A stretch of DNA of 64,000 nt, taken from assembly GCA_026874595.1 (NCBI GenBank), contig CM049307.1, positions 51,705,370 through 51,769,369 on the forward strand, written 5' to 3'. Numbering within the stretch: position 1 is the first letter of the stretch; each line of letters begins with the position of its first letter. Source of the DNA: Sipunculus nudus (Eukaryota > Annelida > Sipuncula > Golfingiida > Sipunculidae). The notes beneath the pieces are model-generated. The model worked only from the letters and a program-made list of their open reading frames with translations, searched no databases and was not told the origin of the DNA. Position numbers and translations under genes: made by a program. Below, in pieces: positions 30,721-62,231 of the stretch.

Positions 30721-30723
30721 CAA

Positions 30724-37079: not shown

Positions 37080-37880
37080 CTACTCGGCAGGAATTTATAT
37101 TGGACTGGTAAGCCTAACTAAAGTCCTGACACCATTCATATCGAGGAATGCATCGCAGTGGTCTTCATTATTTTTCATTGCTGGTAAACAGCCCATAATC
37201 TAAAAATTAGGCTACGAATGATGAATTAATACAAATATAACATGTGAACTAACAAATCAAACTGAAACACTATGGTAAAGAGTCATTTCTTGTATCACGT
37301 ACAAGTTAGCTGCGTCCAAAAATCTTGTGCGAGGCATGCTTGTATCCATGTGGTCAGAAATTCAACAGACATGCTCAGGGATTTACCAAAATGTTGAATT
37401 AAAAGGGTTTTTTCTCACTCATATTTTGCATTATTTAAAAAATATACAAAATAGGTTGACAATTTGTCTGTTTTATGTCAAATGTTTTATGTCAAGTACT
37501 GGTATAAGCCATGAGGTGTGTCAGAAATGATGAAAATATATGCATCATCATAGTCTTAAGGTGAGTTCCTCGCTGATGGATGTAATGGCACTCTGACAGC
37601 CATTACGCTAGTCGTAGACTCTTTTATGTCAGAGGGCCGTAATAGCGCTACTAAAAATCCCAATGCATGTGAAATGAAATGACTCGTTTGCAGTTTCAGT
37701 TTGAGGTGTGAGTTCACATGAATTCTTTTGTGTTGCCTAATGTTAAGATTATTGACTTTTTATCATGGTATGAATGCAAGGTGTTGGAAGGCCACTGCGG
37801 TGCATTCCTTGGTTTGTCTTGCATCACGAGCCCAATATTAGTGCCCACTGAGTTATGTGCTTTTGGCTAGTTCCTCTGCT
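37080..37880. repeat. Foldback element, copy B
   Basis: Same arms as copy A: AGGAATGCATCGCAGTGGTC at about 37,145 pairs with GGCCACTGCGGTGCATTCCT at about 37,790. Confidence 0.66.
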
Positions 37881-42583: not shown

Positions 42584-42600
42584 ATGAGGGGCTTAATAAG
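42584..42600 (+). CDS. Exon 1: start codon and signal peptide N-terminus
   Basis: Encodes MRGLI plus two bases of an Arg codon and ends at donor AAG|GTATGT (phase 2). The next exon completes the codon and gives a continuous hydrophobic leader. A possible 3' splice site at about 42,528 (gtttcag) upstream may join an unseen 5' UTR exon. Confidence 0.65.
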
Positions 42601-45600
42601 GTATGTTTTTGCTTTAAACCTTTATTATTTAAAGTAGGGTCAATATGATACAAACTTTATTTTGCAGAAGAAAATTAGAAAGATGTTTGTTAAAATTTGT
42701 GAAATATCTGTTGATTTCCCCAGGTTCCTTCCTTTGACCTTGGTATACATCCTCTGGATGTTGGTCTTATTGACATCAGCAAAGAGTGAGTATGAATAAT
42801 ATGTGTTCCAAAAGCTCTTGGTACACTTTGTATACATAGGTAGAGTTAAACTTGCCTTACTTACACTGCTACACATCTAACATGATTCATTTTAATCGAT
42901 GATCTTAAATCTAACACATGAATGAGTAAATAGAAATTATTTAGTGCCCAGCTTCTTACTAGCACCACCGAGAAAGTTCTTATCCATGTGACATTTTGTA
43001 ATTAGTATTTTTAATATCATTACATTTAAAAAAATTAGGGGACATATCGTATAATCCCCTCGCAGGGCAGCATAACTAGATTGTGTGTATTACACAGTCT
43101 TGAAAACAGGAGGGTAGTTCTGTGACCTTGACTTTTGACCACATGACCTCAAAATCGATAGTGATCTTCCTCTATGGTATGGCGAGCAGTAGTAAAGTTT
43201 GGGATGAAAGCTTTAGCTTCAACAAGCTTTCAAAAAGAAATGGGCACTGTGGCATGGCCTTTTATCTCGTGACCTCAATATCGATAGGGTTCTTCATCTT
43301 GTGTGTGAGGCGGGGAGGGGGTCATATGTGAAAGATGAAAGGTTTGGTCAAGCAGTTTGGCTCAAAATGCGTCAACAAGCTGTTTCGAGAAGTGGGTCCT
43401 ATGGCATTGGATACCGTGAAATAAAAATCGATAGGGTTCTTCATATGAGGGTGGGGGAGCGATATGTGAAAGATGAAAGATCTGGTCAGACGGTTTGGCA
43501 TAAATTACGTCCGCACATTTTTTCAAGAAGTGGGTGCTGCGGCCTTGACCTTTGACCCCGACATTCCCAAATCCACAATGTTCTTCATCTGTGAGATGGT
43601 GAACATCGGCTTCTGTGGCTCAGGGGTTGAGCGCTGGACTCAAAGCCGGGAGATCGTCCGAGGCGGTGTGATTTTCCACGGTCGGACCCCACCCAGGGTG
43701 ACCGCTCTGCAGGTCTAATAGGAAGGCCGTGCCCATCGGCCGTGTTTCACTTACAATCGAGTGGGCCTTTCATTTGCTCCTCGTGGAATGTCCCAGCAAC
43801 GGGGACGATTACACACCCAGGGCCCGCAGGTTAAGTTGTCACCGGGCCTGGTTAACGCCAGGATATAAAATGATAGGAAGCGTGTGATACTGCCCTTTCA
43901 CGTAGTCCGAAAAAGGAATGAAATTCTGCAGATGTACATATATGTAGGTAAATATGCATTAAAAAGTTAGGCGGTTACCTCTTCCAAAAAATAATTTTAA
44001 AAAAATATGGTGAATCATTTGTGAAAGATAACAAATTTTGGTCAGACGGTTAGGCATAAATTGTGTAGACAACTTTGAAAAAATGAGTTCTGTGGCCTTG
44101 ACTTTTGACCCCGTAACCTTAAAATCGCTTTTCCTCTGTGGATGGATGAGCCATAAGTGAATGATGAAAGGTTTTAGTCTATTGGCTCGGCTTAAAATCA
44201 GTCCACAGGTCAATTCCGGACGGACAGACGTTGTGAGTGGATAATAATGGAAAATTATGTGCTTTCCACTCAATGTATTCGAATAAGCTATTATTAGATG
44301 CAAAACAATAACGTATATATGAAACCACGAAAACACGGAGACGTCTTATTTAGAAACTCTGCATCTAAATAACACCACATTACTCACAGATGCATGCCAC
44401 TCCACTTATAGAATGACTGGGAAGGATTAGGTTGAATGAGGCTTTTGTTCCCCTCTTCATGTTATTTTTAAATACCGCACATTGCCAAATGGAATAATGG
44501 ATGACTATTGTAAATGTTGAAATAGTAGAAGTCACATATTTCCTCTTTCAGATTGCCCAACTGGCAAATTTGGGTGGCAGTGCCGTTTTGACTGTTCGTG
44601 CAACGGACAGTGCAACAACATCACGGGTTACTGTGAAAACTGTCCTGGATTGTCATGGGGCCCAGGGTGTCTTTTAGGTATTAGGATCTGCATATCATAT
44701 TCTATCATATCATGATAAAGATAACGTACGGCATTCTAAATATCTATTAATACAACCGTGTAAAATTAAGCAACCGAATCGCCCATGTTTCCTTATCGGT
44801 ATCTGGACATTTAGCATTCGATATACGCTAATTGACTTATATTTGTCCGTAAACTGCTGAACACATTCACACATTCATAGAGCAAAACATAAGTGATTTG
44901 CCAAACATGAAAATCATCTTATCCTTTGTGTTTATGAGGCACATATATTCTATTATGGAAAACAAAAAACTGTCATCCGTCCCCCGCGATTGATTCGGAT
45001 CGAATTAAACCAGTAAGTAACTCTCCGATAAGGCTAATTTCGTCTGTCAATGCTTTTGTTGATAGACACATCCTGCACATATAATGATCAGCCAGGTGCA
45101 CAGTACCAAGGGAAACGTTCACAGGATGACAACAGCAGAAGCTGTATTCCATGGAAACCGCCGAAAAGAGGTTACACAGCAGACAAGTTTCCTGATAAGA
45201 ACCTGACAAAAGTTTCCAATTATTGCAGAAACCCAACAGAAACTAAACCTCCGGGTTACTCAGAAAAACCTTGGTGTTACAATTCGCCCGACTTATCGTT
45301 TGGGTGGTGTACTATAGGGGCATGTTGTAAGTATGTTTATCACCTTGCTCCTTTTGTGTAACAAAAACAAAAAAATATGTCATTATTCAATATTCATGGA
45401 AAACGTGGTAAACTGGACTTTTATCATATTTTTTTATTTAGTATTCAAAAAAGGCTGTATCTGTTTATATCAGCCCGATATTCATAAATTGAATATATCA
45501 TGTAACCGATGTCATGATTGTATAAATTAAATAATGTATTCAAAGATTTTATCGTTTATTGTTTGGTATGTCATTTTAGCCTGCCCAAATGGTCGATTTG

Positions 45601-48600
45601 GAACAAACTGCATGTCAGAGTGTCACTGTAATGACCCGGCTAATACGTGCTCTTCTGATACTGGTCAGTGTTCTACTGAATGTCATGAACATTTCCAAGG
45701 AACATTTTGTCAAGGTCAGTTCTCTAAACAAGTGATTTTTCGAACATTAAAAGTAATAAATATGTTTTTCAAATCTTATCTAAAAAAATCTATTTAAAAG
45801 ACAAAAATGTGTATAACAATGTATTAAATTTTAAAATATCTTCTAAAATGTGAACATTTTGGAGAGTTACTAGTTTACTAGGCCTCTCCCAAGTGGCGCT
45901 GACGATTGTAACACAGACAGCCAGTCCACACGTAAATGGCCTCTGGCATAAATATGTAATCTGCTTATAAATGCTGAGATTAAAAGAAATAAAACATATC
46001 AGCACTTGTTAATATGATTTATTGGAAATTATTTCTTTGGAGCTACATCATCAGTGTCCCTTACAATCTGATAGTGATATTTATGTTCCGTTTCCGTTAA
46101 TAAATGTTATCTATTTGCAACTATCAAAACTGACACTTGACACGACCGCCGTTGGTATGTGACGGCACTTGAAGTTCTTCTAATGATATTTTGTTTGAAC
46201 ATGTCGAAGTCAAAATGTGTGACTGGTTAAAACTAATCAGTAAGCTGTTTCTCTGAAAATTCCTCAAATTATTATTCATCCTAGTTACTTTTCTTAAATG
46301 CAGCACCGAATCGACGACGTTGTTCATGACAACAAACCTAACAAACGGCAATATATATAGACTCATGACAATAATGTGCAACCACAAATTTTAAATAAGG
46401 AAAATCATCAAAAAAGGTTGCCGGGAAAATGTAAGGTTCCTCCTTAGTTTATCAAGCACACGGATATTTCTACTGCATTACGATTCGCACACATATAATA
46501 AATACTACGAGTTCATGATAAATGAAATGTTAACTATTAACAACAAATAATTCATCTGCCAGGAAGCTAAAACAGATCGTACAATATGACTTATATAATG
46601 TAATGAACCTTATCTTTGCGTTACTAAGAAAAGCCAAAATGTATTTATACGTGTGTCTCGAATATTGTAAGTCAGAAGTTTAACCATCCGAGAAAACAAA
46701 AGGTTAATACTAAAATGTTCTCTCATTTTATAACTCGTTTTGACTTCTCCTTATAATTGTGCCCACAACTGTAGCAAAAGTCACTATACGTTTGGCTTAA
46801 TATTACGTTTTTTCAGGCTATTCTTAAAAAAACATGAATATTCGAATATCGCTCACGGTAATGATCCCAACGGAAAAGCTTCTTATAGATTAACCGTGAC
46901 AGCACGACTCAGCACAGACCTAAATTAGCCTAACTTGAGACGTGATTGAAGCCATATCGAGAAATGCATCGCAGTGGTCTTGCATCATGTTGCATTCATA
47001 TTGTAGTAAACAAATCATAATCTTAATATTAAGCTACGTATGATGATTTAACAAAAATAATAGAAATGAACTCACAACCCAAGACGAAACTCTGTCTCTA
47101 TGGAAAAAAAAGTCATTTCCTGTATCGCGTATAAGTTGATTACGTCCAGTAACCCGTGCGAGCCATACTCGTATTTATGTAGTCAGAAAGTCAACAAACA
47201 TGTGGAGGGTTTTACAAATTATCTGATTAAAAAATCTAATAAAAAAATTATGCCTTTCATTACAGTGTGTAAAGACAAATTGTTTGGGCCACACTGTGAC
47301 AGGACATGTCGCTGCGAAAACCACATGGAAGTGTGCAATAAAAACACAGGCTTTTGTTCATCAGGATGTCCTGCTGGTTGGAAGGGAACCGATTGTCATA
47401 CCGGTGATAAAAATTTTTTTTTTTTTTCAATTTGGTAAACCTAAAACGATTTGTTTGTGCACGTTTGAAACTTAGTGCTCGCTTAGAGACGCACAAGGGC
47501 TCACAGAAAAACAAACAGGAAAAGTTTAACATCGGGAATTATATAAGCAAATAAATGCAGATCTCTGATATCAGGCTCGTACACAACTAATCGTGAGCGA
47601 AATGCAATGCGCTATGCGCACAAAAAAATTATCGTTTACCAGATAATACTTTCAAACCCTGATTTATCTTTTGTCCATATTATATTGTAAACATGTGCAA
47701 CATATTATATTGTAATCGCAAACTTGGTTTCAGAGATACATTATTGATAGTCTCGCTCTTGCAAAATGAATGTTTTCCCAGCCGTACTGCTTTTTCGAGG
47801 AACCTATTCCAATCCCACACTCGGACGCTATAATAATTAGTTCGAAGGCAAACAATATTGAAATGCTCAAGTAGATTGCAGTATAGTGTTCATGGTGTAT
47901 TACTTCCTCTCCATGATTTTCTACCAGTTGCGTTCAACTTATTGAGACTGTTCATCTCTTTAATATACCCTTTGCCCGCTTGTCTGTCTTTAGCAAAGCC
48001 AAAAATTGTTTTGCACAGAACGCTTAATATAGTTTCGCAATTACTGCGTCTCAATTTATCTTCATATAAAAATGTCCGGTTGAAGACAAAACGCAGCGAT
48101 TAAAACAGAAAGGTGATATTGAAAGAAAGTTTTTTCTGTTTCATATAGTTGTTAGTGTAGCAATTAATCAGACATCGTATGATTTTATTAACTTATATGC
48201 ATATATTGTGGGACTGTATCCACGAGATGCAAGGCCTGCGTATTCTGAACAAGTAAACATTTTCAGGACTGAAAATGGAAAAAATAAAGTCCTGTCTTTT
48301 TGTTGTTACAATTTTTTGCTCTAAATATATGCTACAAAAGGACTGGCATGATTCGCATATTTTTCTTCATGGAAGTCTTTGGTTTCAGCGGTTTAGTGTT
48401 TTCGTGTACAGTGGCGGTGATCTGTCCCATAAAATACATTTAATATAAATGAGAACAGTATTGTGTCTGGTTTTAACGAGTAACGTGTATGTTAAGTGTA
48501 GTTAAGTCTTACCGGTCGTGTTCAATTTGAAACATTTCTATATACAAAACAGAATGTGCACAATGGCAATATGGACGGAATTGTAATAACAACTGTTCTG

Positions 48601-50673
48601 TAAACTGTGATCCTTCGGCACGATGTGACAGAAAGACGGGCACCTGCTCTTGTCAACCAGGTTACCAGCCGCCACTGTGTGTGCAAGGTGAATGTTTATA
48701 TTAATTATAAGCTGAAAACGGGAGTAAAGGTTGAGTTAATATATGTAAATATATGTAAAAAAATGTATTGCGGTCACTATTCTATATAATTCTGAGGTAA
48801 CGGGATATACTGTTTATTATACAGAGCGAAGGTGCATTATAAAAATGTATAGCTTATTCAAAAGTGTTTTCCATGTCCAGCCTGAAGAACATTAATTACA
48901 TTTATGCTCTATAGCATATTTGTTGGGATTTTTTATAGAAGACATTCACATTTCACGATTTCAACATCATTTATGGTTGATACATATTCTCCTTTAGAGT
49001 GTTCACAAGGGATGTACGGACTTAACTGCACCAGTAATTGTTCTATAAACTGTGACCCCCCTGGCCAATGTGACAAAAGGTCGGGGACCTGTCTTTGTAA
49101 GGCAGGCTACAAGCCACCATTATGCGTCGACGGTCAGTATTTCAATTATGTCAACGTATCTGTTATTGTTATGCAGTTTTTAGGCTTATACAGACGTGTT
49201 ATCTATATCCTTGTTTAGCAAACATAAATTTCATTCAGGTTCTGTTATATATTTTGTTAGAAGAATTTACTAATTAACTTCACCTGAACATGTACAATTT
49301 TTTTCACATATTTTGTATAGGGTATATATTCTACTTCAGAATGTGAAAAAGGGATGTACGGACATAACTGCACCGGTAATTGTTCTGCAAATTGTGACCC
49401 TCCAAGCCAATGTGACAAAAAGTTTGGCACCTGTCTTTGTAAGGCTGGCTATCAGCCGCCAATATGCGTTGATGGTGAGTTTTTCAAAATAACCAGGTAT
49501 ATAGTACCAGGTATCTTGGTATAGATCATACCACACACAATAGTTATATAATATAAGCCAGCTAATTTTAATCTGCCTTTTCCACAGTAATCCAAATATA
49601 TTTTAATATTAACTACTGAATAGAAAAAGAAGAAAAAACTTTTGTTATGGTATTTTATGCATCGGCGGAACAATCATTGCTTGATCTGTAAACATAATTC
49701 TTTTTTCCTGCCTTCAACATACATGCAAGAAATAATCTGACATTTCGATAAACAGAATGTCAAAGTGGGCAATATGGGCTTAACTGCTCCGGCAATTGTT
49801 CGATGAATTGTGACACCCCTTGGAAATGTAACAAACAAAATGGGCATTGCCAGTGTCAAGCAGGGTATCAACCTCAATTGTGTGTCGATGGTGAGTTTAA
49901 ATACTTTGCCCTTACCTTAAACTGACCTTAGTTAACTTTAGGATTCAGGTGAATCAAAGTTTGTCTAAAATGTATACACCATCATTCAATTTATGTATAG
50001 TCGTCACAGACCACACTAGCTAATCAATTGTGTAATTGACACTTAATTTATTGTCATTTGGAAGCGATAGATGGATAAGTCACTCAATACTTAAGTTTAC
50101 CGCTCGACTCAACTTCGATTCATATGAACCTTTTTTCATTACAGAATGTACGCAAGGACAATACGGATTGAACTGCACAAGGAACTGTTCTCTGAATTGT
50201 GATACGCCTGGACAATGCAACACGAAAACTGGAGTCTGTGCATGCCAAGCAGGGTTTGAGCCTCCTTTATGTGACTCAGGTTTGCAGATCTTGGATAAAA
50301 AAGTAGTAATACCAAACTAGCAAGGAAATGTGCATTTTCGATTAAGGCTGTTATTATAAATAATGCACATGATTTTAATGGAGAATGTTTACTGGTTCAA
50401 TGGAAAAATTTAATTTTGTACGATCATTGAAACAATGATAATGCTTTTTGTGTAGCTGTAAACATAATCCGACGTTAAGCTATATGTTCTTGTGATACTG
50501 TGTTTGTCATTCTTATTCTATGTTTTACAGAATGCTCTTTTGGGCATTATGGGTTAAATTGTAGCAGCAACTGTTCTATGAATTGTGATATCCCCGGCCA
50601 ATGTGACAAAAGATCAGGAACCTGCGTATGCCAAGCAGGTTATCAGCCGCCATTATGCCTTGACGGTTAGTGG

Positions 50674-50737
<64 letters not shown>

Positions 50738-51983
50738 ATTGTTATGGGGTGACATAAAAGCGGACTGAACTGTCTTGGTAGGGAAGCTTGCTTTTCTTGC
50801 GAAGCGCTTGGAACGACGGACCCACATGGGTTCGAATCCCAGATCGGCACGATATTTCCCCTGAGCAATTTGTCCTCGTAACAATATACATATATATATA
50901 TATATATATATATTAATATATATATATATATATATATATATTAATATATATATATATATACATGTCATTGTAGTAAGTTTGTCTTTAGTTTTTCAATATG
51001 TACATTGAATTATAAGATGATTTTTTTTCATAATTCCGAAGCTTTACTTAGAAATTTATTTTTTCTTATGGCTTACTGAAATGACGTGAATATTTTTTTA
51101 TTAATAATTTATGTACTGTAATATACTGGTTACAAAAGAGCTTTCTGAGATTTTGTATTGAGTGGCCTCGTTAATTGATTTCCCTCAATTGTCAGCGTGT
51201 GTAAAAGGTTACTATGGGCGTAACTGCTCTGGTAGATGCTCTATGCACTGTGATACACCGGGAGAATGTAACAAGAGGTCAGGCACCTGTCTGTGTCAAA
51301 CAGGTTACCAGCCGCCCAAATGTGCGGAAGGTAAGGTCTACAACTCTGAACATGAATCCTTCAAATTGTTTACAAACATAAGGCGCTCATTAATGGAGAT
51401 GAAGGCAGTTTCTTAAATCAATAATCATCGAATTCTTGGTAATTTGTCAATAAAACGTTGGTGTTATTTTGATGGAACAAACTCTAACTAATTCATTTAC
51501 GCTGACACACAACGTGTACATTGAATATCTTCTTCATATTGCCCTTACAGAGTAATTACCGACTTGTTAATCCAACGCATGTGTTGAAATATATATATAT
51601 TAATATTACAGTGTCTAAAAAACATGAATATCAAATTTTAAAGCATCTACAAATCAATTATCATTCATTAGCTACTTTATCACAATAAGAATAGTATGTA
51701 ATAGATCATTTGAAAGAAAAACCCTTTATGTTAAATGGATGTGTTGTTTCTTACAGCAAAGTAGTAAATGATTAAGAACTGTTAGGATACGGCAATGCTC
51801 ACAATTGTAGACTTTCTTTCCGTGACTTTATTAGCCTGTGAAGGTGGAAAGTATGGCATGAACTGTAGCAGCGCATGCAGTACGGGCTGTGAAGACATAT
51901 GCCTGAATACTAACGGAACATGTAGGTGCAAGAAAGGCTACTCAGGCATACAATGCATCCAGAGTAAGTAATAATGTAAAAAT

Positions 51984-52046
<63 letters not shown>

Positions 52047-54560
52047 CAAAACGTTCTTCAGTTAACCTCGATAGGAATATTTCATGCCTGCGTTTGTTAA
52101 TTATAATTGTCATTCTTGCTAATCATATTATACACGTTTTAACATATTTTTAAAAGATCCTTTCTATGTTTAAGTAACGATTATGCTGCTTTTTTCAGGG
52201 TGCCCGGATGGTAGCTTTGGCAGGTATTGTGTACATTCGTGTAACTGCTATAACAGGACGGAGGTATGTAACAAAGAAAGCGGTGCATGTGACCATAGTG
52301 GATGTCCTGAGGGATGGCGAGGTGATGGCTGTCAGACAGGTATTACTCGCTTCCATATAGATCATGTTGACAATAATTTAAAAAAAAATCATATATGCCA
52401 TGGTACCTTCATAATTATCCTTTTATAATTTGGTTTTATTATATAAGCATACCTTCTGCAGATTAAGCATAATTTGAACAAGTAACGAGAGGTGTATTGA
52501 ATTGTTGATTGGAATAATCTAATAGTGTTACTTTCTCAGTGTGCAAACAGGGAACATATGGCAGAAACTGCGATAAAAACTGCGAAATCGGTTGTCGAAA
52601 TTCGTCATGTAACATCGAAACAGGAGCATGTGAGTGCAGAGAACCCTACCGCGGACCTCTTTGTGCAAAGAGAATCCAAGGTAAGTTTATTCATCTTTTC
52701 TTGTCATGGATAATCATCAAATTATAACAGAAGCATTAAAATGGAACACGATATTCCGTAATGAGAAATACTTTAAATATAGATTGGTATATTATTCGAT
52801 TATTCTTGACCCGATAACCTTTGCATCACCATAATCAACTCTGATTTTTTTTTCAAGTTTATTTTGTTTAAAATTCAATGGTCTTTATTTAGGAGACCAT
52901 TATTCATTTTTATTACTTTCTAATATACTTATCATTGTACATTTTTATTACGTTTAAGCTTTTTTACGTTTAAAATATTAAGGGAACATTCTTTTTAGCC
53001 TTTTTTTAGCTCATGATAACTCATAACAAGTTATTCGATTGTAGGGTTAAACGTAGGGGCCATCGCAGCAGGGACACTTGTGCCGCTGATTGTTATAGCG
53101 GTAGCAGTCGTCTTGGTTCTATTTTGGGTCAGGTAGACTATAAACTCAATATCAACATTACAATGTTTTAACCTTATGTTTCTAAGATCACGTGACAAGA
53201 CCGTCTCTGTTGACATCTTTTAATTGATAACATTTTTAGTTTATACGCACTAGTTCGTTTATACGGTATTTAATCTGAAGTTAATAATGACAAGAACTAA
53301 TCTAATATCAACATTCCCTAGATATTGCGTGTCCGGGGACTTCATTACATGACATAAACCGCCCTTTAGATGTATAAGCCTGATGAAAGCATCCAAGTGA
53401 GCTTGACCGACTTACTCATTAGGTTTTATATATATTGTATTACCTGTAACAGCAATATTTTTCTCGAAAGGCGTCGCAGGGGACCAAAGAGCACCTCAAC
53501 TCATACAAAAAGTGAGGGTTTTTTTTAGATCAATAGAATAGTATGGTGATTATAGTATATTTTAGTATAAAATTTTGCATGAAATCGAACAACGCTTGTC
53601 AATTGTTTTCTGCGTTTTCAATATAAATACTGGAGCAACAGCTGTGTCAAAAATAATTGGATATCTGTATTCAAAATGATTTTGTGCCCTTTGTTTATGC
53701 TTGATATATGGATAATAAATAAAAAAAAATATACAATATTTTATTGATGTACAATATGTATATACATTCAATAGGTGAAACTCACAGTGAAATGGTGGAT
53801 ATTAGGCAAGAAATCCAGCTAGACCCTGCTGATGATAATGTGTATTGCAACCTGTCTATACTTTACGATAAGACGGATATCGCAGTGGATGTGTTTCCAG
53901 ACTACATAAGACACATGATAGACACGGATCACGCATTTGAAGATGAATATAAAGTGAGCCATTAATGAACATATGAAATAAAATGATTCATTATATTCTT
54001 TTTATATATGGCATTAAGTGTTCTAACATGTCCCAACAGAGCTTACCGCTTGAGCCAAGTGGAAATTGTGGCATAGGCAATATGGCGGAAAACCGACCGA
54101 AGAACAGGTTCAAGAAAATAGTTCCATGTGAGTTATATGTTTTGCTTCCGTTTCGCAAATGACTTCAAATATGAATCATCCGGTTAAAAGTAACATTTCT
54201 GAACTACTGGTGTGAAACAGCCGTTCTGTGTCATAGTATAATAATGATAGTGTTATTCACCGTTTTAAGACATTTATCGTGTTAATAAACAAAGATTATC
54301 GCACCAAAATCCCATCTTTGTTCAATGTTTAGCATTGCTTATAAGATGACCACAACCTTGTGAAGCTTCACAACAACAATGATCCCATCCAGGGATATAT
54401 CAATGCAAGCTTCATACCGGTACGCACGCCAGAATATACACACCTATATATGTATTAACTCATATTAAAAGAAAGTAGAAGGTACACGCCTCAAACATTT
54501 ACATCCTTTAAGTTTAATAAGTAACAACATAGACTATGGATGTTAAAAGATTGTATTCAA

Positions 54561-54613
<53 letters not shown>

Positions 54614-57600
54614 TTTTTATTAATAGGGATACGATGATTCAGTCACCTTCATCGCAGCTCAAGGTCTGTCTCCATAACCGTTTATGAAATAACCTTATAT
54701 AATATAGAACAAATGCTTTGGTCAATTTTCGAATGTTAGGTCAGTGACACCTGAGACATTTGTCTTTGTAATTTTTTTTGTCTAAAAGTGGGTGATTTCT
54801 ATAGGTCCGGTGCCTGTGACCCTGAACGACTTTGTCTTACTGTTGTGGGAGAATAATGTGCCTCTAGTTGTAATGCTGACCTCTCTAAAGGAGAAAAACA
54901 AAGTATGTATTAAATTGTGATATGAAATGTATCTTTGACATTGACTTATTGCATCTTTTTCATCTGCGAAAATATTATTTTAAACAAATTTTTATCATTG
55001 TTCCTCTTGGATTCTTAGAGGAAGTAATGTTGTTTTTAAGATCTCCTCCGTATAACGGATACATTTGAATTTTTTTTAATTTTTTACTGAATTAATCTAG
55101 GTTAAGTGTGAGCAGTACTGGCCGAAAGGGAAAGAACCTGTGTCTTTTGGATATGTCACAATGTCTCTGAGGAACGTTAAACCAAATAAGAAGAACTCCA
55201 ACTATGTAACAAGAGAGCTCTTTCTTCAAAAGGTGAAGGGAAATGTGCCGATTAATCGGATAGCTAAAGCAACCCAACGGGTTAAACAGTTAATGTACCT
55301 GACTGATAACATAAGACAAAGCTATAATAAGCAAATTGTTTTTAAAATTTGTTTAGTCAATTGCATGGTAAACAATATATGTGTCATTACAACAGGATGG
55401 CAAGACGAAACGTGTCATATGCAGTTTACTTCCTGGCCAGACCACGGATCCCCGGAAAGTCCTGCAGCTTTTCTGAATTTCCATCAGGAGGCCAAGAAGT
55501 TTTACAACAGCTCCAAAGGACCAGTAGTGGTACACTGCAGGTAGGGATAAGCCTTCTTCAGCCGTCCAATTGTGTTGATCTCACAGTGATAATAACTCTT
55601 TATTTATCTTTATTTTTCTCCTTTCAGTGCTGGAGTTGGCCGGACAGGAACATTTCTGGCCATGGACTACCTCCTTCGACAGGCCGAGAAAAAGGATACC
55701 ATAAGTATATATAATTGTGTCACGGAGTTGAGAAAACAGCGAGTGAATATGGTTCAGAGCATCGTAAGTAAATTATATAGTTATATAAACAACACTGTTA
55801 TTTTAAAGTAGGACGAAAGCATTATTACCGTATGATTTTGTACATTTGAAAGGGCCAATAAAACATAATGATTTATAAGTATTTGACTGTAGGACCAGTA
55901 CAAGTTTTTATATGAAGCTCTTTTGGAAGCGTTGCATTGTGGAAAAGTGGTATATGACTCAGCAGGGTTTGAAGCCTGGCGTACTCAGGACTACAGTGAA
56001 GTCTTACAAAAACAGTTCACGGTGAGCACATCTGGGATACGTACACGTAAAGACTCTGTATTACTTCTGACATAGGCTTTCATACCGATAAATACATACC
56101 CATAATGCCAATAGTCTCTACCCAGAGAAAAAGTTCAGCTCTTTTGTCACGCAATATCCCACTAATTCTACATTGATAAATATATTACAGTAACATATCT
56201 ATGACTTATCCTGAAATGAAACATCCTTAACACTTCGGATACGGTGATTCCCTTTTTTTATATATTCTTAAAGTCTTCCTATATATAGTCGTATAGCAGT
56301 TATATTAAAGTAAAAGGATTACTGAAATAATCTACCATAAGTAACATAGGAAGTAACATAGGTCTGAAAAATAGCTGTAAGAGTAACAACCCCCTTTACA
56401 GCAATAAAGAACCGAATGAAAATCCTTTCTTTCAGGTATATTATGAGAACAATATAATGCAGCTCGATAAAAAAGCCTTTTCGTAACAGCGTATATGATC
56501 TTTTATTTGGTAACCCTGCTATACGACGAAGGTTGGGAAATGTACCTTAACCGCTTCTTTGAAAATGATTAACAATATGCAGAAAAAAAATGTAGTATGA
56601 GAAAAAATATCCCTCAGATGCTGGAAAAATTGCGTCGTCTCCCTCGTTTTCCCGATACTTCCGCTGGAAGGGATCCTAGCAATAGAAACAAGAATCGGAA
56701 AATGAGTTTACTTCCCCTCGAGAGATGGCGTCCTCTGCTTATGATGAAAGTTCCATCTACCACTGACTACATCAATGCTGTCTTCGTCAAGGTTACTAAA
56801 CCCTAACTATTAACACTGACTGTGTTTAATCATTTAAAATCCCAATATCAATAGATTTATATTATTATTAACAAATTATGTATTAAAATATATTGCTTTT
56901 AAATAACAGTTTAAACTTGGGTTCGTTAGAACCATTGACCATGCAAGTTAGGATATTTCGACCAATACGTTAATAAAACCTAAAGGCATGATGAGTTTGA
57001 CATAAGGATTGTTTGTTAATTTTCATCCGGCTTTAACTGCAGACAGCCTGGAGTAATGATGGCATACTTGTGACGCAATCACCAATGGGAAACACAACGG
57101 TCGACCTGTGGCGTCTAATATATGATTATGAGTGTCATATTGTTGTTGCGTTGAACACATTTGAATCGCAGGTAGGCGCTGGCACATTCTTTTGTTTCTA
57201 GAAATTTGACACGTTGAAAAATTTCAAATTGATATTTTTTATCGTTATATTATTACATGCAGTGTGATTTCATCTTGTTTCGTGTGTATTATAGGTGGGT
57301 CATAGGGCATGTGTAATGTCATCTATATTTGACTGTATCTGTCTGAAAGCCAATGTATTTTCTTGAATCCCTTAGGACTGCCCTAGATATATCCCTGACG
57401 AGACCGATATGTTTGGGCCTTTTAATGTGGCGATAAAATCCGCAGTCGAAGAAGATGGTTTTATAACGACATCATTAATGTACACGATCAAGGTGAGACT
57501 TGGCACGTTCTTATTATATATTTCAGAGCTTAACAGCATGCATACCAGGATTCTAGAATTATAGTCTCATCTTAAAGACACTTGTATAATTACAGTCAAG

Positions 57601-60600
57601 CATTTGATATACGTATTACATGTTTTTTACGCCTGAAGTCAAATCAATATTACAGTTGAAACCGCATTAAGTGCACGTTTACTTTATACACATAGGTCTT
57701 TGAAACTTCTTTTGATAAATAATTTTATCATCTAGCAAGAACAAACTGAACTGGTTCACTTGGCGGTGTGTACTGAGGCTGCTCCAGGAGCACTGCCAGA
57801 TATTGCCCCTTTTCTGGCTCTGACAAAAGCAATCCAATCCGCTCGACAGAATGGGCTCACAGGGCGGATCCTGGTCCACTGCAGGTTAAATAATCAGCGA
57901 TTTTCTAATAAAATATCACAAAACACTGATCGAATTCCATATATCTTTATTAATATAATCTCATTTTTCAAAGAAAGGGATACACACATGTAACTTTTTT
58001 AATGGAAAGTCATTTTGTTTCCCTTTCAAGTCACTATGTGAAAGATTATTAAAACTACTACGTGAACGATTATTAAATCTAGTTCATAATCCATAACTTA
58101 ACTAGTTATGGTAATAATGTCTACAGTACCTTTATAATGAAACTGAACATATAAGCCCGAAAGCAAAATAATTATATCCTTTCTGTGTATGGCTTCAGAA
58201 ATGGCCTGGTAGAGAGCGGGCTGTTCTGCGCACTGAGCCAAATTTGCCACAAAATCAAGGAGGAAGGGGAGGTGGATATATTTCATGCTGTGAAGCAGAT
58301 CAGAATCAGCCGCCCGGAGTTCATCACGTCACTGGTCAGTATGCCAACATGCAACGGCTATCTTGTGTTTTAGTTCCCGTTATTACCTCCGCCAAGCCTA
58401 GCGGCGGTGGTTATGTTTTTGGGCGCGTATATTTGTCTGTGTGTTTATATGTTTGTCTGTTAGCACGATAACACAAAAAGTCCTCAGCGGAGTTTGATGT
58501 AATCATCAGGATAGCTCCGCAATGCGTAAATAACCCCGGAATAAGCTCTAGTATTTTAGGGGGGTCCATAGCAAATATTTGCAGGCTAGCCACGGTTGTT
58601 AATTGTTTCCTGTAAACGGAGTTTAATGACATTTTTGGGATATCTCGGCAGTGATACAAGGAACAATTGTTTAAAGGGACACAAACAGGAGCAATACTAT
58701 GCCTATTCTTTCCCACTGTCAGTTCAGCTGTGCTTTATACGATTCTCAGCAAAACCATTGCAGCACACAAGTACCTCGCACACGGCTTTTTAACACTTTT
58801 TTTATGGCTCTGCGTGCTGGTTAACACAGTCAACGTGTGTCTGTTTACCATAACAAGGCCACGTGACCGGAGGTCCGAATATGAGTCTCAACACGTGATG
58901 TTTGAGCCAGCGGGAATATGTATTACATTTTGTTGGCCAAGTCAGTCGAGGCATCTCCTGATTGACACGTGTTATGGTTTCTCAATGCACACGGCCCCAC
59001 GCGCTGTGTTAATGTTGACACCTGTGATCGCGTCCGTTTTTTTAACACTCGTTTACAGGAGTAAGCAAACGGTTTCAAGGCAATATGTTGTCCGGTACAT
59101 GTTTATTTTAAAGGAAAGAAGCTATTATTTGTGTTAATTCAACATGCTTGATAGGTAATTGGGCCCCTTTAAATTTGGGACACCGATCCATGCGTGTAAA
59201 AGCCCGGAATGAGCTCTGATTTTTTTTTTTTGGGGGGGGGGGGGGGGGGTCTATTGCATATTTGTTTACACTGGGACGTTTAGCCGGTGACGATATGGCT
59301 AATTTTGGAAAGAGTCGCGACGTCATACAGCACAATGACGTCATTGCACTTATCCGTGCCGTTTCCCTGAAAGCTTTCATCAACGTAAAGCAGGGGGGCC
59401 ACGGCTGCTTGTCGTTATTTTTATGGTCCTTGGTCCTGTTTTAATATGAAAGTAAATGAAATAAGCTCGATCGAACCTCCATTCCCAGGGGAGATGGGGC
59501 CAAAACAATTTCCGAGGGCTAGTTTCTTCAGTAGTAGCGTGTAAGATTCTTCATCTACGGAATATGGAATGTGTGTTGAGAGATTTCATATGAACCTGCA
59601 CGGAGGCATGAATTTTTCTATGAGTGGCACCTAAATAACATTAGTAAACTTAAAAATTCACTACATGTAGCGATGACTTTTGCCTGGTATATTAGCATTA
59701 TGCATGCCGGGTCCGCGCATGAGGAATCTCACATTCTTTATTTCTCAATACGTGTACCGATTTTATACGCTTTCCGCATCCTGCATTCCGTACATATAAG
59801 AAATCTTAGCTTTAGTCTGCAAATATATTCTACTTTACCTGTTAATTACCTCCACTAAGCGGTAAGGGGTTATGTTTTTGTGGATGTTGGTTTGTTTGTT
59901 TGGCCGTTAGCAACATTAGTCAAAAAGTTATTTACGGATTTTGATTAAATCTCCAGGATAGCTCGGCAATGATTGAAGGAAAAATTGATTAAATCTTGAT
60001 ACGGAAACAATCTTGATCCAGGAATATTTTAAAGGGGAAATGCTGCTTTTCTGGCAGTTTCATATGAGGCTAATGAGCTGAATTGGCTGATGTCTACGCT
60101 CTGTGAGTGCTTTTTTAGCTCAGCTGACTATAAGTCATCTGACCTATAGGGATCACCTTTTGTCCGTCGTCCGTCCGGCCGTCCGGGCGTCTGTCCGTTA
60201 ACAGGGCACAAATCGTAACCACTGGACCTGGAATCTTCTTACTTTACATCCGGAGAGGTCCATGAAAAATCTCCTTGGAAACCTGGAATTAGGTCTCCAT
60301 TATATCCGTCGAGCTATGGGGCTCCAAAGTACCCCCCAGAATAGTCAAAAATTCCTACAAAAACTTCAATATCTCATTAACTACATAATTGATGCTCATG
60401 ATTTTTGGCATACATATTGATTATGAGATGTTCCATCGGTTCCTTTAGACTGGTGGCGCCACTTGTATTTTTCAATTTTTTTACGATTATTTTTCTCTAT
60501 TTTTGAGACCTTTAAAATGTGGATATATGTTAACAGGGCACAAATCGAAAAGACTGGACCTAGAATCTTCATTCTTAAATTCTGAGAGACCTATGAAAAA

Positions 60601-62231
60601 TCTCCATGGAAACTAGAAATTAGGTCTCTGGTACCCATATTCCTTGAGCTATGGGGCCCCAAGTATCCCCCAGAATAGTCAAAATTTTCATAAAAAAAAA
60701 CTTCAATATCTGATTAACTACTTCACTGATGGTCATGAATTTTTGCATACATATTATTCATCATGAGATGTTTCATCAGTTTCTGCAGACTTGTGGCGCC
60801 ACCTGTATATTTTTTACGAATTGTTTTCTCTATTTTTGAGACCTTTAAGGATGTTGTTATCTGTCAACAGGGTTCAAAATTGTAACGACTGGGCCTAGAA
60901 TCTTCATTCTTGACACACAGGGAGACCCATGAAAAGTCTCCATGGAAACCTGAAATTAGGTCTCTCTTACCCATATCCTTTGAGCTATGGCACTCCAAAG
61001 TACAGCTCAGAATAATGGAATATTTGATACAAAAGCTGAAGTATCTGAACAACTAATGCAGAGATCACCATAATTGTTTGTTAGGGCTTTTTTCGAACTT
61101 TTTTCTCTATTTTTGAGACCAGATATACAGAACAGATATGAACATCTGTTAATAGGGCACAAATCATAACAACTGGACCTTGAATCTTTTTCATTTACAC
61201 ACAGGAAGACCCATGAAAAATCTCCATGAAAACCTGAAATAAGGTCTCTGTTACCCATATCTATTAAGCTGTATGGCTCCAAAGTATCCCCCCAGAATAA
61301 TGAAAAATTGGATAAAAAAAATCCAGTATCTCAATAACTACAACACTGATGCTCATGATTTTTTGGCATACAAATTGATCATGACGTGTTCCATCAGTTT
61401 CAGCAGACTGGGTGCACCACCTCTATTTTATTCAATTTTTTTAGGAATTATTTTCTCTATTTTTGAGACCTTTAAAAATGTGGTTATCTGTCAACAGGGT
61501 ACAAATATAACAACTTGACATAGAATCTCCATTCTTGTCATGCAAAGATGCCCATGAAAAGTGTCTGTGGAAACCTGAAATTAGGTCTCTGTTACCCATA
61601 TCCTTCAAGCTATAGGACTCCAAAGTATCCCTCAGAATAATGGAAAATCTGATACAAAAGCTGAAGTATCTGAACAACTACTCCAGAGACCACCATGCTT
61701 CTTTGCATGGATATTGACCATTAAGTGTTTTTATTAGTTTCTGCAGACTGGTAGAGCCACCTGTAAGTTTACGTATTTTTTTTCTCTATTCTTGAGATAT
61801 ATTAATACAAACACAATCTCAGCCTGTTGGTTAATCTGTTTATGCTTCAGTTCAATGGTTGTAAACTACCATTCAGATGATAAAATATTTCCTTTTGCAA
61901 ATCTCTTCCCAGTCAGCTGAGCGTCATGACCCATGGGTCACTTGTTAGTGTATATGTGCTTTACTTTTGTTGAAAGTTGATATCGGATTGAGGATTTAGA
62001 GTTGCTGTCAAACCTTTACCTCTAATATAAGGGTATACATATGACAAAGATATCCTTTTATTTCAGGAAGAATACCAGTGGCTCCATGAGGCTGCCGGTC
62101 CTTCAGCACTTACGCAAACGTTCATTAGCTGCGTTGACGCTCACATGTGCATATACATATACGTCTACACGACGTTTCAGATAATGTCTATGAACAATTT
62201 AGCATGCTCTATATTAGCCACTGTATATTAG
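42584..62231 (+). CDS. Receptor-type tyrosine phosphatase with EGF, kringle and tandem PTP domains (34-exon gene model)
   Basis: Type I membrane receptor predicted to dephosphorylate phosphotyrosine inside the cell. Order seen: signal peptide (residues about 1-26), EGF-like 1 (27-68), kringle (69-155), EGF-like 2-13 (156-698), transmembrane helix (about 705-727) followed by RRRRG, juxtamembrane segment with YCNL, PTP domain D1 (about 795-1095) with WPDHG and HCSAGVGRTG, then a degenerate D2 to the end. The coding exons sum to 4,181 nt, one short of a multiple of three; the misfit is at the 55,232/55,396 junction and all other junctions agree in phase. Extracellular domain exons are all phase 1-1. 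The start ATG at 42,584 is chosen because it opens a two-exon signal peptide that joins in phase to the first EGF exon. The stop is TAG at 62,229. The EGF part resembles MEGF/Draper-type receptors; the cytoplasmic part resembles tandem RPTPs. The ligand is unknown and no symbol is assigned. An expressed gene is likely, but the frame misfit means a pseudogene is not excluded. Confidence 0.88.
42724..42785 (+). CDS. Exon 2: signal peptide core
   Basis: Acceptor ttgatttcccCAG|G, donor A|GTGAGT (phase 1). Encodes FLPLTLVYILWMLVLLTSAK, a typical hydrophobic leader with likely signal peptidase cleavage near TSA|K. The last base joins the first EGF exon as an Asn codon. Confidence 0.72.
43100..43603 (+). 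repeat. TGACCTTTGACC tandem repeat, left part
   Basis: Units of about 160 bp with AAATCGATAGGGTTCTTCAT, GTGAAAGATGAAAG and AAGAAGTGGGTxCTxxGGC. Lies in intron 2 of the phosphatase gene and is interrupted by a SINE. Confidence 0.62.
43604..44006 (+). mobile_element. tRNA-derived SINE
   Basis: Starts CATCGGCTTCTGTGGCTCAG, with a good Pol III A-box (TGGCTCAGGGGTTGAGCGC) near its start, and ends in an A/T-rich tail. It is flanked by ATGGTGAA at 43,596-43,603 and 44,007-44,014, which fits a target-site duplication. The interrupted repeat continues on the other side. Confidence 0.65.
44007..44235 (+). repeat. TGACCTTTGACC tandem repeat, right part
   Basis: Resumes with GTGAAAGATAACAAATTTTG and CCTTGACTTTTGACCCCGTA after the SINE. 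Confidence 0.6.
44552..44677 (+). CDS. Exon 3: EGF-like domain 1
   Basis: Phase 1-1 exon between tcctctttcAG and G|GTATTA. Encodes a Cys-rich module starting CPTGKFGWQC and ending GPGCLLG, eight cysteines including the closely spaced DCSC. Separated from the other EGF domains by the kringle exon. Confidence 0.85.
   Translation: MAQLANLGGSAVLTVRATDSATTSRVTVKTVLDCHGAQGVF
45066..45326 (+). CDS. Exon 4: kringle domain
   Basis: A single phase 1-1 exon encodes a whole kringle. The six cysteines appear in the family order with landmarks SCTYN, RSCIPW, NYCRNP, KPWCYN, GWCTIG and GAC; first to last Cys spans 84 residues, normal for the fold. Kringles bind protein or lysine-type ligands in plasminogen, HGF, ROR receptors and Kremen. 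Acceptor gttgatAG, donor T|GTAAGT. Confidence 0.9.
45580..45714 (+). CDS. Exon 5: EGF-like domain 2
   Basis: 135-bp phase 1-1 exon, acceptor tcattttAG, donor G|GTCAGT. Encodes CPNGRFGTNC...GTFCQG with eight cysteines, of the MEGF/laminin-EGF type. Confidence 0.85.
46885..47230. repeat. Foldback element, left half only, in intron 5
   Basis: Shares GAAATGCATCGCAGTGGTC and the following sequence up to TAGTCAGAAAGTCAACA with copies A and B. No right arm seen. It ends just before the acceptor of exon 6. Confidence 0.62.
47266..47403 (+). CDS. Exon 6: EGF-like domain 3
   Basis: 138-bp phase 1-1 exon, acceptor tttcattacAG, donor G|GTGATA. Encodes CKDKLFGPHC...GWKGTDCHTG. The intron before it holds the left half of a foldback repeat at about 46,885-47,230. 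Confidence 0.85.
48553..48687 (+). CDS. Exon 7: EGF-like domain 4, first of seven 135-bp copies
   Basis: Phase 1-1 exon, acceptor atacaaaacAG, donor G|GTGAAT. Encodes ECAQWQYGRNC...GYQPPLCVQG. First member of a run of seven equal-length exons sharing the pattern YGxNC-x3-C-x3-CD-x4-C...GTCxCxxGYxPPxC. Confidence 0.88.
48998..49132 (+). CDS. Exon 8: EGF-like domain 5
   Basis: 135 bp, phase 1-1, acceptor ttctcctttAG, donor G|GTCAGT. Encodes ECSQGMYGLNC...GYKPPLCVDG with NCT and NCS sequons. Confidence 0.9.
49340..49474 (+). CDS. Exon 9: EGF-like domain 6
   Basis: 135 bp, phase 1-1, acceptor tctacttcAG, donor G|GTGAGT. Encodes ECEKGMYGHNC...GYQPPICVDG. Confidence 0.9.
49756..49890 (+). CDS. 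Exon 10: EGF-like domain 7
   Basis: 135 bp, phase 1-1, acceptor cgataaacAG, donor G|GTGAGT. Encodes ECQSGQYGLNC...GYQPQLCVDG. Confidence 0.9.
50145..50279 (+). CDS. Exon 11: EGF-like domain 8
   Basis: 135 bp, phase 1-1, acceptor tttttcattacAG, donor G|GTTTGC. Encodes ECTQGQYGLNC...GFEPPLCDSG. Confidence 0.9.
50531..50665 (+). CDS. Exon 12: EGF-like domain 9
   Basis: 135 bp, phase 1-1, acceptor atgttttacAG, donor G|GTTAGT. Encodes ECSFGHYGLNC...GYQPPLCLDG. The donor is followed within about 13 bp by a long (TA)n tract. Confidence 0.9.
50678..50740. repeat. (TA)n microsatellite after exon 12
   Basis: TA run 13 bp from the exon 12 donor. Confidence 0.9.
50741..50885 (+). mobile_element. tRNA-related SINE fragment between (TA)n tracts, intron 12
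   Basis: Carries GGTTCGAATCC at 50,829-50,839, a perfect B-box, in a context like the T-arm of a tRNA (CATGGGTTCGAATCCCAGAT). No clear A-box. Bounded on both sides by (TA)n. Confidence 0.5.
50886..50960. repeat. (TA)n microsatellite, interrupted
   Basis: TA run broken by TTAA; on the far side of the SINE-like fragment. Confidence 0.9.
51196..51330 (+). CDS. Exon 13: EGF-like domain 10, last of seven 135-bp copies
   Basis: 135 bp, phase 1-1, acceptor ctcaattgtcAG, donor G|GTAAGG. Encodes ACVKGYYGRNC...GYQPPKCAEG. Confidence 0.9.
51835..51963 (+). CDS. Exon 14: EGF-like domain 11
   Basis: 129 bp, phase 1-1, acceptor gactttattAG, donor A|GTAAGT. Encodes ACEGGKYGMNC...GYSGIQCIQ, divergent from the seven-copy set. 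A (TA)n tract begins about 20 bp after the donor. Confidence 0.87.
51985..52044. repeat. (TA)n microsatellite after exon 14
   Basis: TA run about 20 bp from the exon 14 donor. Confidence 0.9.
52199..52339 (+). CDS. Exon 15: EGF-like domain 12
   Basis: 141 bp, phase 1-1, acceptor gcttttttcAG, donor G|GTATTA. Encodes CPDGSFGRYC...GWRGDGCQTG, most like exon 6. Confidence 0.88.
52540..52680 (+). CDS. Exon 16: EGF-like domain 13, membrane-proximal
   Basis: 141 bp, phase 1-1, acceptor ttactttctcAG, donor G|GTAAGT. Encodes VCKQGTYGRNC...PYRGPLCAKRIQG. Last extracellular domain before the membrane exon. Confidence 0.88.
53045..53132 (+). CDS. Exon 17: transmembrane helix
   Basis: 88 bp, phase 1 to 2, acceptor attcgattgtAG, donor AG|GTAGAC. 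Encodes GLNVGAIAAGTLVPL followed by a Val/Ile/Ala/Leu-rich stretch ending LFWVR: one membrane-spanning helix with the positive stop-transfer cluster continuing in the next exon. Confidence 0.86.
53471..53511 (+). CDS. Exon 18: stop-transfer segment (41-nt exon)
   Basis: Phase 2 to 1, acceptor ttctcgaaAG, donor A|GTGAGG. Encodes RRRGPKSTSTHTK, which completes the RRRR cluster after the helix. Short, but phases match on both sides. Confidence 0.75.
53775..53953 (+). CDS. Exon 19: juxtamembrane segment and start of D1
   Basis: 179 bp, phase 1 to 0, acceptor acattcaatAG, donor AAA|GTGAGC. Acidic segment with DDNVYCNLSILYD; the Tyr codon is at 53,843-53,845. The end, FEDEYK, is the usual beginning of an RPTP catalytic domain. 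Confidence 0.85.
54040..54127 (+). CDS. Exon 20: PTP D1, phosphotyrosine loop
   Basis: 88 bp, phase 0 to 1, acceptor tgtcccaacAG, donor T|GTGAGT. Encodes SLPLEPSGNC...NRPKNRFKKIVPY, matching the conserved KNRYxxIxPYD substrate-recognition loop. Confidence 0.88.
54346..54419 (+). CDS. Exon 21: PTP D1, YINASFI segment
   Basis: 74 bp, phase 1 to 0, acceptor attgcttataAG, donor CCG|GTACGC. Encodes DHNLVKLH...GYINASFIP, the conserved DYINAxxI strand. Confidence 0.85.
54564..54609. repeat. (TA)n microsatellite before exon 22
   Basis: TA run ending 17 bp before the exon 22 acceptor. Confidence 0.9.
54627..54663 (+). CDS. Exon 22: PTP D1, IAAQGP segment (37-nt exon)
   Basis: Phase 0 to 1, acceptor tttattaatAG, donor G|GTCTGT. 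Encodes GYDDSVTFIAAQ, the conserved F(I)AxQGP strand completed by the next exon. A (TA)n tract lies directly before the acceptor. Confidence 0.82.
54805..54902 (+). CDS. Exon 23: PTP D1 core
   Basis: 98 bp, phase 1 to 0, acceptor gatttctatAG, donor AAA|GTATGT. Encodes GPVPVTLNDFVLLLWENN then VPLVVMLTSLKEKNK, matching the family pattern GPxxxTxxDFWxMxWE...VMLT. Confidence 0.88.
55101..55232 (+). CDS. Exon 24: PTP D1, KCEQYWP segment
   Basis: 132 bp, phase 0 at both ends, acceptor attaatctAG, donor AAG|GTGAAG. Encodes VKCEQYWPKG...YVTRELFLQK. Splicing from here to the next exon loses frame by one base. The frame stays open through the intron, so read-through would add about 55 codons. Confidence 0.78.
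55396..55540 (+). CDS. Exon 25: PTP D1, WPD loop and catalytic Cys
   Basis: 145 bp, phase 1 to 2, acceptor attacaacAG, donor AG|GTAGGG. Encodes QFTSWPDHGSPE and VVVHC; the catalytic Cys codon is at 55,536-55,538. Both the general-acid Asp and the nucleophile are kept. Confidence 0.87.
55628..55763 (+). CDS. Exon 26: PTP D1, P-loop and Q-loop
   Basis: 136 bp, phase 2 to 0, acceptor ctcctttcAG, donor ATC|GTAAGT. Completes HCSAGVGRTG (catalytic Arg codon 55,641-55,643) and reads on to ELRKQRVNMVQSI. Confidence 0.9.
55893..56021 (+). CDS. Exon 27: PTP D1 C-terminal helices
   Basis: 129 bp, phase 0-0, acceptor tttgactgtAG, donor ACG|GTGAGC. Encodes DQYKFLYEALLEALHCG, the end of the Q-loop and the family's C-terminal helix. 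Confidence 0.88.
56436..56482 (+). CDS. Exon 28: 47-nt linker exon between D1 and D2
   Basis: Acceptor cctttctttcAG, donor TC|GTAACA, phase 0 to 2. Encodes VYYENNIMQLDKKAF. Included because it is the only piece found that joins the phase-0 end of exon 27 to the phase-2 start of exon 29. No conserved motif of its own. Confidence 0.55.
56596..56791 (+). CDS. Exon 29: D1-D2 linker and start of D2
   Basis: 196 bp, phase 2 to 0, acceptor aaaaatgtAG (weak), donor AAG|GTTACT. Encodes NRNKNRKMSLLPLERWRPLL and TDYINAVFVK, the standard opening of an RPTP second domain. Confidence 0.78.
57043..57171 (+). CDS. Exon 30: PTP D2
   Basis: 129 bp, phase 0-0, acceptor ctttaactgcAG, donor CAG|GTAGGC. Encodes ILVTQSPMGNTTVDLWRLI, the FIVTQxPLxNTxxDFWRMI strand. 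Confidence 0.87.
57376..57492 (+). CDS. Exon 31: PTP D2
   Basis: 117 bp, phase 0-0, acceptor aatcccttAG, donor AAG|GTGAGA. Encodes CPRYIPDETDMFGPF, the D2 equivalent of C(x)QYWP. Confidence 0.84.
57736..57884 (+). CDS. Exon 32: PTP D2, degenerate WPD region
   Basis: 149 bp, phase 0 to 2, acceptor tatcatctAG, donor AG|GTTAAA. Encodes QEQTELVHLAVCTEAAPGAL and then ILVHC. The place of the WPD loop holds VCTEAAPG: no WPD triad. Confidence 0.86.
58199..58334 (+). CDS. Exon 33: PTP D2, degenerate P-loop
   Basis: 136 bp, phase 2 to 0, acceptor atggcttcAG, donor CTG|GTCAGT. With exon 32 gives HCRNGLVESGLFCAL: the Cys remains, but the Arg of CX5R is Glu (codon 58,212-58,214). Ends RISRPEFITSL. Confidence 0.86.
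58385..58670 (+). repeat. CCTCCGCCAAG dispersed repeat, left part
   Basis: Starts TTACCTCCGCCAAGC..GGCGGTGGTTATG, then GTCTGT repeats and AAAAAGTCCTCAGCGG. It resumes after the nested MITE at 59,173. Related copies are at 59,848 (+) and 18,781-19,018 (-). Confidence 0.5.
58671..59172 (+). mobile_element. TTAA-type MITE nested in another repeat, in the last intron
   Basis: Runs from TTAAAGGGAC to GGGCCCCTTTAA, so the ends are short inverted repeats (AGGG/CCCT) flanked by TTAA. TTAA target duplication is characteristic of piggyBac-type elements. It interrupts a CCTCCGCCAAG-type repeat. Confidence 0.66.
59173..59260 (+). repeat. CCTCCGCCAAG repeat, right part, with poly-G
   Basis: Continuation after the nested MITE (TTTGGGACACCGATCCATGC), ending in a T run and a G run at about 59,219-59,249. 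Confidence 0.4.
59848..60060 (+). repeat. CCTCCGCCAAG-family dispersed repeat
   Basis: TTACCTCCACTAAGCGGTAAG..GGTTATG followed by GTTTGTTTGGCCGTTAGC and AAAAAGTTATTTACGG, parallel to the copy at 58,385. Confidence 0.45.
60110..61955 (+). repeat. Tandem cluster of about 330-bp units in the last intron
   Basis: Five degenerate units: each has TTAACAGGGCACAAATCG, GACCTAGAATCTTC, CCATGAAAAATCTCC, GAAATTAGGTCTC, CTCCAAAGTACCCC and GGTGGCGCCACCTG or a variant. The cluster is bounded by TTTAGCTCAGCTGAC and GTCAGCTGAGCGTCATGACC, which look like inverted ends. Confidence 0.75.
62067..62231 (+). CDS. Exon 34: D2 C-terminus and stop
   Basis: 165 bp to TAG at 62,229-62,231, phase 0, acceptor cttttatttcAG. 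Begins EEYQWLHEAA, matching the EQYxFLYxAL helix, then an unconserved tail. It follows a 3.7-kb intron full of repeats. Confidence 0.78.
   Translation, partial: EEYQWLHEAAGPSALTQTFISCVDAHMCIYIYVYTTFQIMSMNNLACSILATVY

Follow-up and report, generated by a model that had tools for sequence, protein, structure and literature searches.

A kringle exon within the multi-EGF ectodomain of a predicted tandem receptor tyrosine phosphatase in Sipunculus nudus

We found that a 64,000-nucleotide stretch of the Sipunculus nudus genome (assembly GCA_026874595.1, contig CM049307.1, positions 51,705,370 to 51,769,369, forward strand; referred to here as the window) contains a predicted gene in which a kringle lies within the MEGF/Draper-type ectodomain of a receptor with tandem protein tyrosine phosphatase (PTP) domains. 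The initial annotation had proposed, on one strand, a signal peptide, an EGF domain, a kringle, twelve EGF domains, a membrane helix and tandem PTP domains. We recovered the same order, which confirms this domain arrangement at the level of the gene model. Our data point to a type I receptor in the MEGF-RPTP class, with a ligand-binding head probably formed by the kringle and EGF domains. Its likeliest role would be in recognition or adhesion, either on haemocytes or on epithelia, and we give this reading a probability of roughly 0.62.

The gene comprises 32 exons at positions 42683-62231 of the window, all on the plus strand, and was assembled by hand from the three plus-strand frames and their splice sites. 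Its start lies 99 bases inside the position proposed earlier (42584), and its end (62231) is identical. The first exon (E1, 42683-42785) carries the start codon and the signal peptide and ends in phase 1; it is followed by EGF1 (E2), the kringle (E3), twelve further EGF exons (E4-E15), a transmembrane (TM) exon (E16, 53045-53132), two juxtamembrane exons (E17-E18), the first PTP domain (D1, E19-E26) and the second PTP domain (D2, E27-E32). The signal peptide, recognized as a hydrophobic stretch, and the TM helix were both assigned by eye. Splice phases agree at 30 of the 31 junctions, the exception being E23/E24 inside D1, and the 1377 codons that the model has before and after that junction are all open. 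Exons E2-E15, which comprise the kringle and the 13 EGF exons, all have phase 1-1 borders and a length divisible by three. Every one of the 31 introns has GT...AG ends; because the splice sites were selected for these ends, the borders are no independent evidence for the model, while the phases do count. Phase and order together support a single gene that includes both the ectodomain and the PTP exons, as proposed.

The kringle exon (E3, 45066-45326, 261 nt) encodes approximately 80 residues with six cysteines, and NYCRNP and PWCY, which are kringle signatures, are visible in its translation. Searched alone, the exon matched the Pfam kringle family (PF00051) with 42.9 bits (E 6e-11, cut-off 34.3) over profile positions 4-79 of 79, and it scored 40.7 and 40.8 bits when joined to one or the other neighboring exon. 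A roughly reversed kringle, used as a control, had no Pfam match. The kringle was absent from the hmmscan output for the whole 952-residue N-terminal part although the exon alone passes, perhaps because a composition filter acts on such a cysteine-rich protein. Among structures in the PDB, 46 distinct sequences matched the kringle at E <=1, with a plasminogen kringle first (E 1.2e-7) and ROR1 (E 2.9e-6) and prothrombin next. Lysine-binding kringles carry paired acidic residues. Since the stretch after NYCRNP is unlike plasminogen in the alignment and paired acidic residues are not evident, lysine binding by this kringle is doubtful. A single-sequence AlphaFold2 model of the exon had a mean pLDDT of 43.0, which is too low to use.

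The phase 1-1 borders and 261-nt length of the kringle exon mean that its skipping would keep the frame, and the exon could thus lie outside the main product, either as a skipped cassette or as part of another transcript. Its donor is weak, scoring 0.24 on the gene's own donor matrix, a value reached by 50% of the 3578 GT sites in the window; it is the second lowest of the 31 donors, the EGF1 donor being the lowest, and its intron side nonetheless reads GTAAGT. The acceptor is good, with only 4.2% of 3341 AG sites reaching its score. Against a place outside the main product, the exon is flanked on both sides by EGF exons of the same strand, its phases match theirs, and no other gene was seen in the list of open reading frames (ORFs) or in the ten intron ORFs that were scanned. 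We consider this alternative very unlikely.

We found that each of the 13 EGF exons encodes eight cysteines, which gives 110 cysteines with those of the kringle (13 x 8 + 6), plus one in the signal peptide. EGF1 (E2, 44552-44677) precedes the kringle. The exons after it are EGF2 (E4, 45580-45714), EGF3 (E5, 47266-47403), EGF4 (E6, 48553-48687), EGF5 (E7, 48998-49132), EGF6 (E8, 49340-49474), EGF7 (E9, 49756-49890), EGF8 (E10, 50145-50279), EGF9 (E11, 50531-50665), EGF10 (E12, 51196-51330), EGF11 (E13, 51835-51963), EGF12 (E14, 52199-52339) and EGF13 (E15, 52540-52680). All were placed by the gene model, together with the cysteine count in most cases, with the identity to E7 for EGF6 and EGF9, and with both the cysteine count and the Pfam scan of single exons for EGF8 and EGF13. 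Ten of the 13 exons were scanned singly, of which two passed the Pfam cut-off and two matched nothing at 0.01. The N-terminal part reached 63.9 bits for EGF_laminin when its stretches were summed, and none of them passed alone. Because few single exons pass Pfam, the EGF assignment rests on the eight-cysteine pattern and the likeness of the exons to one another. EGF4-EGF10 are 50-80% identical to one another in amino acids, with E11 80% identical to E7, and E7 and E8 are 83% identical in nucleotides, which is a sign of internal duplication. The ectodomain contains 18 N-glycosylation sequons. Long runs of TA dinucleotides occur in the introns at 50677-50739 (by EGF9), 51986-52044 (by EGF11) and 54565-54609 (by E21).

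Remains of three more EGF exons were found on the same strand approximately 36 kb upstream of the gene by tblastn, a local EGF HMM and blastn. The first (5715-5809) is 73% identical in nucleotides to E7 over 96 bases (E 5.6e-10), and its HMM score of 4.1 bits is at chance level, given that 20 letter shuffles of positions 1-42500 had a top score of 4.3 bits. The second (5977-6093) is 75% identical to E7 over 101 bases and scored 32.6 bits, and the third (6701-6778) scored 15.0 bits and has an internal stop; another of the pieces is missing five residues. The better-kept piece matched no Pfam family at E <=1. Neither the kringle nor the PTP domains had an upstream tblastn match at E <=1, and the sole other upstream match was between the protein's tail and a simple repeat at 11942. 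These remains probably represent an older copy of the ectodomain, that is, a decayed sibling gene; its presence suggests that duplication and loss occur in this gene family.

Among the longer or cysteine-rich ORFs listed outside the gene, we recognized, by eye, only the relict EGF exons and LINE-like ORFs. A LINE-type retrotransposon lies at 30694-33109 on the plus strand, with matches to an endonuclease/exonuclease family (27.3 bits, cut-off 24.5) and to reverse transcriptase RVT_1 (85.8 bits); the element may also include ORFs at 29460-29816 and up to 33802. The last intron holds an array of approximately 336-base units at 60194-61722, to which stretches at approximately 25.6-26.4 kb and 28.6 kb are related. 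A dispersed repeat, with copies 70-82% identical, occurs in the same 3.7-kb intron (58666-59175) and upstream at 24105-24587, 9864-10181 and 19057-19238. A second one, at 46927-47232 in the intron before EGF3, is 72-77% identical to 37111-37404 and 15801-16015.

The intracellular part begins with two juxtamembrane exons, of which E17 (53471-53511) starts with a basic run and E18 (53775-53953, plus strand) contains the tyrosine motif Y-C-N-L, which is of the YxN type, a type that can bind Grb2. D1 is encoded in its first half by E19-E23 (54040-54127, 54346-54419, 54627-54663, 54805-54902 and 55101-55232), which fall in the N-terminal part with a Pfam Y_phosphatase score of 117.2 bits, and in its second half by E24-E26 (55396-55540, 55628-55763 and 55893-56021), which are entered through the out-of-phase junction and carry WPDHGSP and HCSAGVGRTG. 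D2 is encoded by E27-E32 (56618-56791, 57043-57171, 57376-57492, 57736-57884, 58199-58334 and 62067-62231); the C-terminal part scored 270.2 bits for Y_phosphatase, with its best stretch in D2. The motifs KNRF and YINAS are also present in D1, so that it has the KNRY/F, WPD and HCX5R motifs of a classical receptor-type PTP, albeit with its E23/E24 entry junction off phase; a QTxxQY-type motif had no match in D1 with one pattern whose spacing we chose ourselves. D2 has lost its catalytic motifs. It reads HCRNGLVES, which keeps the cysteine and is without the arginine of HCX5R, and it is also without WPD, so that D2 is most likely a degenerate, inactive pseudophosphatase. The layout of a signal peptide, an ectodomain, a single TM helix (by eye) and tandem D1 and D2 is that of a receptor-type PTP. 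Among the best 60 of 244 matches, D1 scored 210.5 bits with PTPRT, 207.8 with PTPRS D1, 202.7 with PTPRB and 199.4 with PTPRK, about equal values that single out none of the vertebrate subtypes R1-R8 among the matches listed. The best 60 of 242 matches of D2 had PTPRE (114.7 bits) and PTPRA (109.5 bits) on top among single-domain D2 chains.

The single off-phase junction lies within D1, where the strongest donor (55232) and the strongest acceptor (55396) are one base out of phase. We listed ten in-phase pairs of sites. The best of them, 55232/55425, scores 9.5 and drops approximately ten residues before the WPD loop, and the second best scores 5.9 and would insert unrelated residues. Micro-exons were sought by eye only. 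At 55101-55540 on the plus strand no stop interrupts the frame across the presumed E23/E24 intron, so that a transcript retaining this intron would stay in frame and gain 55 residues in D1; by eye, these residues are unlike a PTP. The mismatch may reflect an assembly error, a genuine lesion or unseen splicing. Were the lesion real, the gene would be a decaying or already broken copy, a recent pseudogene beside the older remains upstream, and both the one-base offset with the cost of its in-phase alternative and the decayed EGF exons, which indicate that gene loss does occur at this locus, are in keeping with that reading. However, the codons beside the junction are open, all EGF and kringle cysteines and the four listed D1 motifs are intact, and a one-base assembly error would account for the junction equally well. 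We regard a broken gene as improbable.

We compared the predicted receptor with known receptors that share parts of its architecture. Draper, MEGF10 and MEGF11 are type I receptors with tandem eight-cysteine EGF repeats and short tails that signal through tyrosine motifs, and to our knowledge they have no kringle. The S. nudus receptor resembles Draper and MEGF10 in its tandem eight-cysteine EGF repeats and differs from them in its tail, which is a tandem PTP. Draper and MEGF10 also have an N-terminal EMI domain; Pfam did not list one for the N-terminal part here, in the same scan that missed the kringle, and no further head-domain exon scored above the Pfam cut-off in the ten intron ORFs scanned. 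In ROR receptors a kringle is combined with Ig and Frizzled domains and a kinase, and in Kremen with WSC and CUB domains; we know of no EGF array or PTP domain in either. The common feature is a kringle in the ectodomain of a membrane receptor, and ROR1 is among the PDB matches of the kringle found here.

Tandem RPTPs of vertebrates (PTPRS/LAR, PTPRT/K/M and PTPRA/E) share with this gene a D1 with active motifs followed by D2, and differ in that their ectodomains are built of FN3, Ig, MAM or carbonic-anhydrase modules, not of EGF domains and a kringle. Human RPTPs are described with FN3, Ig and MAM ectodomains, and tandem RPTPs as having an active D1 and a D2 that is inactive (PMC7959691); carbonic-anhydrase domains are described for PTPRZ1/G (PMC11788884), and subtypes R1-R8 for vertebrates (PMC5336234). 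The initial annotation had set the gene apart from RPTPs with these four kinds of ectodomain. This contrast stands for vertebrate RPTPs and needs correction, since multi-EGF RPTPs are known in a snail (PMC12297450). The annotation of Biomphalaria sudanica includes 17 RPTPs that combine MEGF and galactose-binding domains with PTP domains. SudRes1, a region of schistosome resistance, holds three of them, and of the 14 elsewhere 13 are clustered nearby (PMC12297450). Genes and EGF domains have been gained and lost in this family, with EGF domains lost in a resistant snail, and its authors propose a host-pathogen interaction, with no ligand named in the sections on these receptors (PMC12297450).

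By description, the S. nudus receptor is like these snail RPTPs in its multi-EGF ectodomain, single TM helix and tandem intracellular PTP domains, and unlike them in carrying a kringle where they have a galactose-binding domain. The ectodomain exons of our model are all EGF or kringle exons, and no galactose-binding domain was found in the Pfam output for the N-terminal part, which also missed the kringle, or in the ten intron ORFs, a scan that small or split exons could escape. An antistasin-like neighbor, as in SudRes1, was not found in six frames with a loose cysteine pattern, which is a weak test. The main text of the snail study (PMC12297450) does not contain the word kringle. In oysters, more than 40 RPTPs are expressed at higher levels in agranulocytes, and haemocytes express many RPTP transcripts with alpha-, kappa-, mu- and T-like annotations, in passages that do not describe their ectodomains (PMC13070813). 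In a study of domain combinations, the kringle is listed as a hub of those specific to deuterostomes, and Y_phosphatase as a hub of those specific to animals (PMC2394772). We found no kringle RPTP among the listed titles and abstracts of the open-access literature, and the two papers naming both kringle and receptor-type tyrosine-protein phosphatase were, by their listed entries, about HGF/MET and lipoprotein(a). Kringle also occurs together with a tyrosine phosphatase term in a few further papers, among them one on astacins (PMC9848320). The multi-EGF RPTP class is thus already described and, as far as searched, the kringle head is not; of the combination initially called unusual, it is the kringle that remains so.

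We hypothesize that the kringle and the adjoining EGF domains form the putative ligand-binding head and that the internally duplicated EGF4-EGF10 array serves as a long glycosylated stalk. The ligand might be matrix, a self marker or the surface of a pathogen. Its binding would cluster the receptor or shift its position, and such clustering or exclusion would alter the access that D1 has to phosphotyrosine-bearing kinases and adaptors in its vicinity. Docking or regulation may be the task of D2 and of the Y-C-N-L motif. It is probable that an MEGF-RPTP gene acquired the kringle through the shuffling of a phase 1-1 exon.

Several of the same observations would be consistent with a receptor that acts in development or adhesion, as LAR and the R2B RPTPs do, that has no immune role and whose kringle binds a matrix or signaling ligand as in ROR-type receptors. 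ROR1 is among the kringle matches (E 2.9e-6), D1 is as near to PTPRT as to PTPRS D1 (210.5 and 207.8 bits, among the best 60 of 244), and adhesion is described as a widespread use of RPTPs (PMC7959691). By analogy, the multi-EGF ectodomain and the decayed sibling are nearer to the polymorphic snail family (PMC12297450) than to single-copy guidance receptors. We regard a purely developmental or adhesive role as possible, although we do not favor it; because of the snail analogue, recognition is likelier than adhesion or development, and a role as a recognition receptor is plausible.

More tentatively, MEGF-RPTPs might be the modular receptors of a recognition system: a single chassis (EGF stalk, TM helix and D1-D2) would carry interchangeable heads shuffled as phase 1-1 exons, galactose-binding in Biomphalaria and a kringle here, with birth and death of genes in tandem and a kringle head that recognizes a pathogen or self protein. 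Taken as a whole, this extension by analogy is rather unlikely to hold. The MEGF-RPTPs of B. sudanica sit in a region associated with schistosome resistance (PMC12297450), and a member with a different and well-studied head provides a defined module with which to search for a ligand. A kringle-headed member would also allow head swapping on a constant signaling body to be tested. Our data suggest that RPTPs outside vertebrates span a broader range of architectures than the set of FN3, Ig, MAM and carbonic-anhydrase ectodomains.
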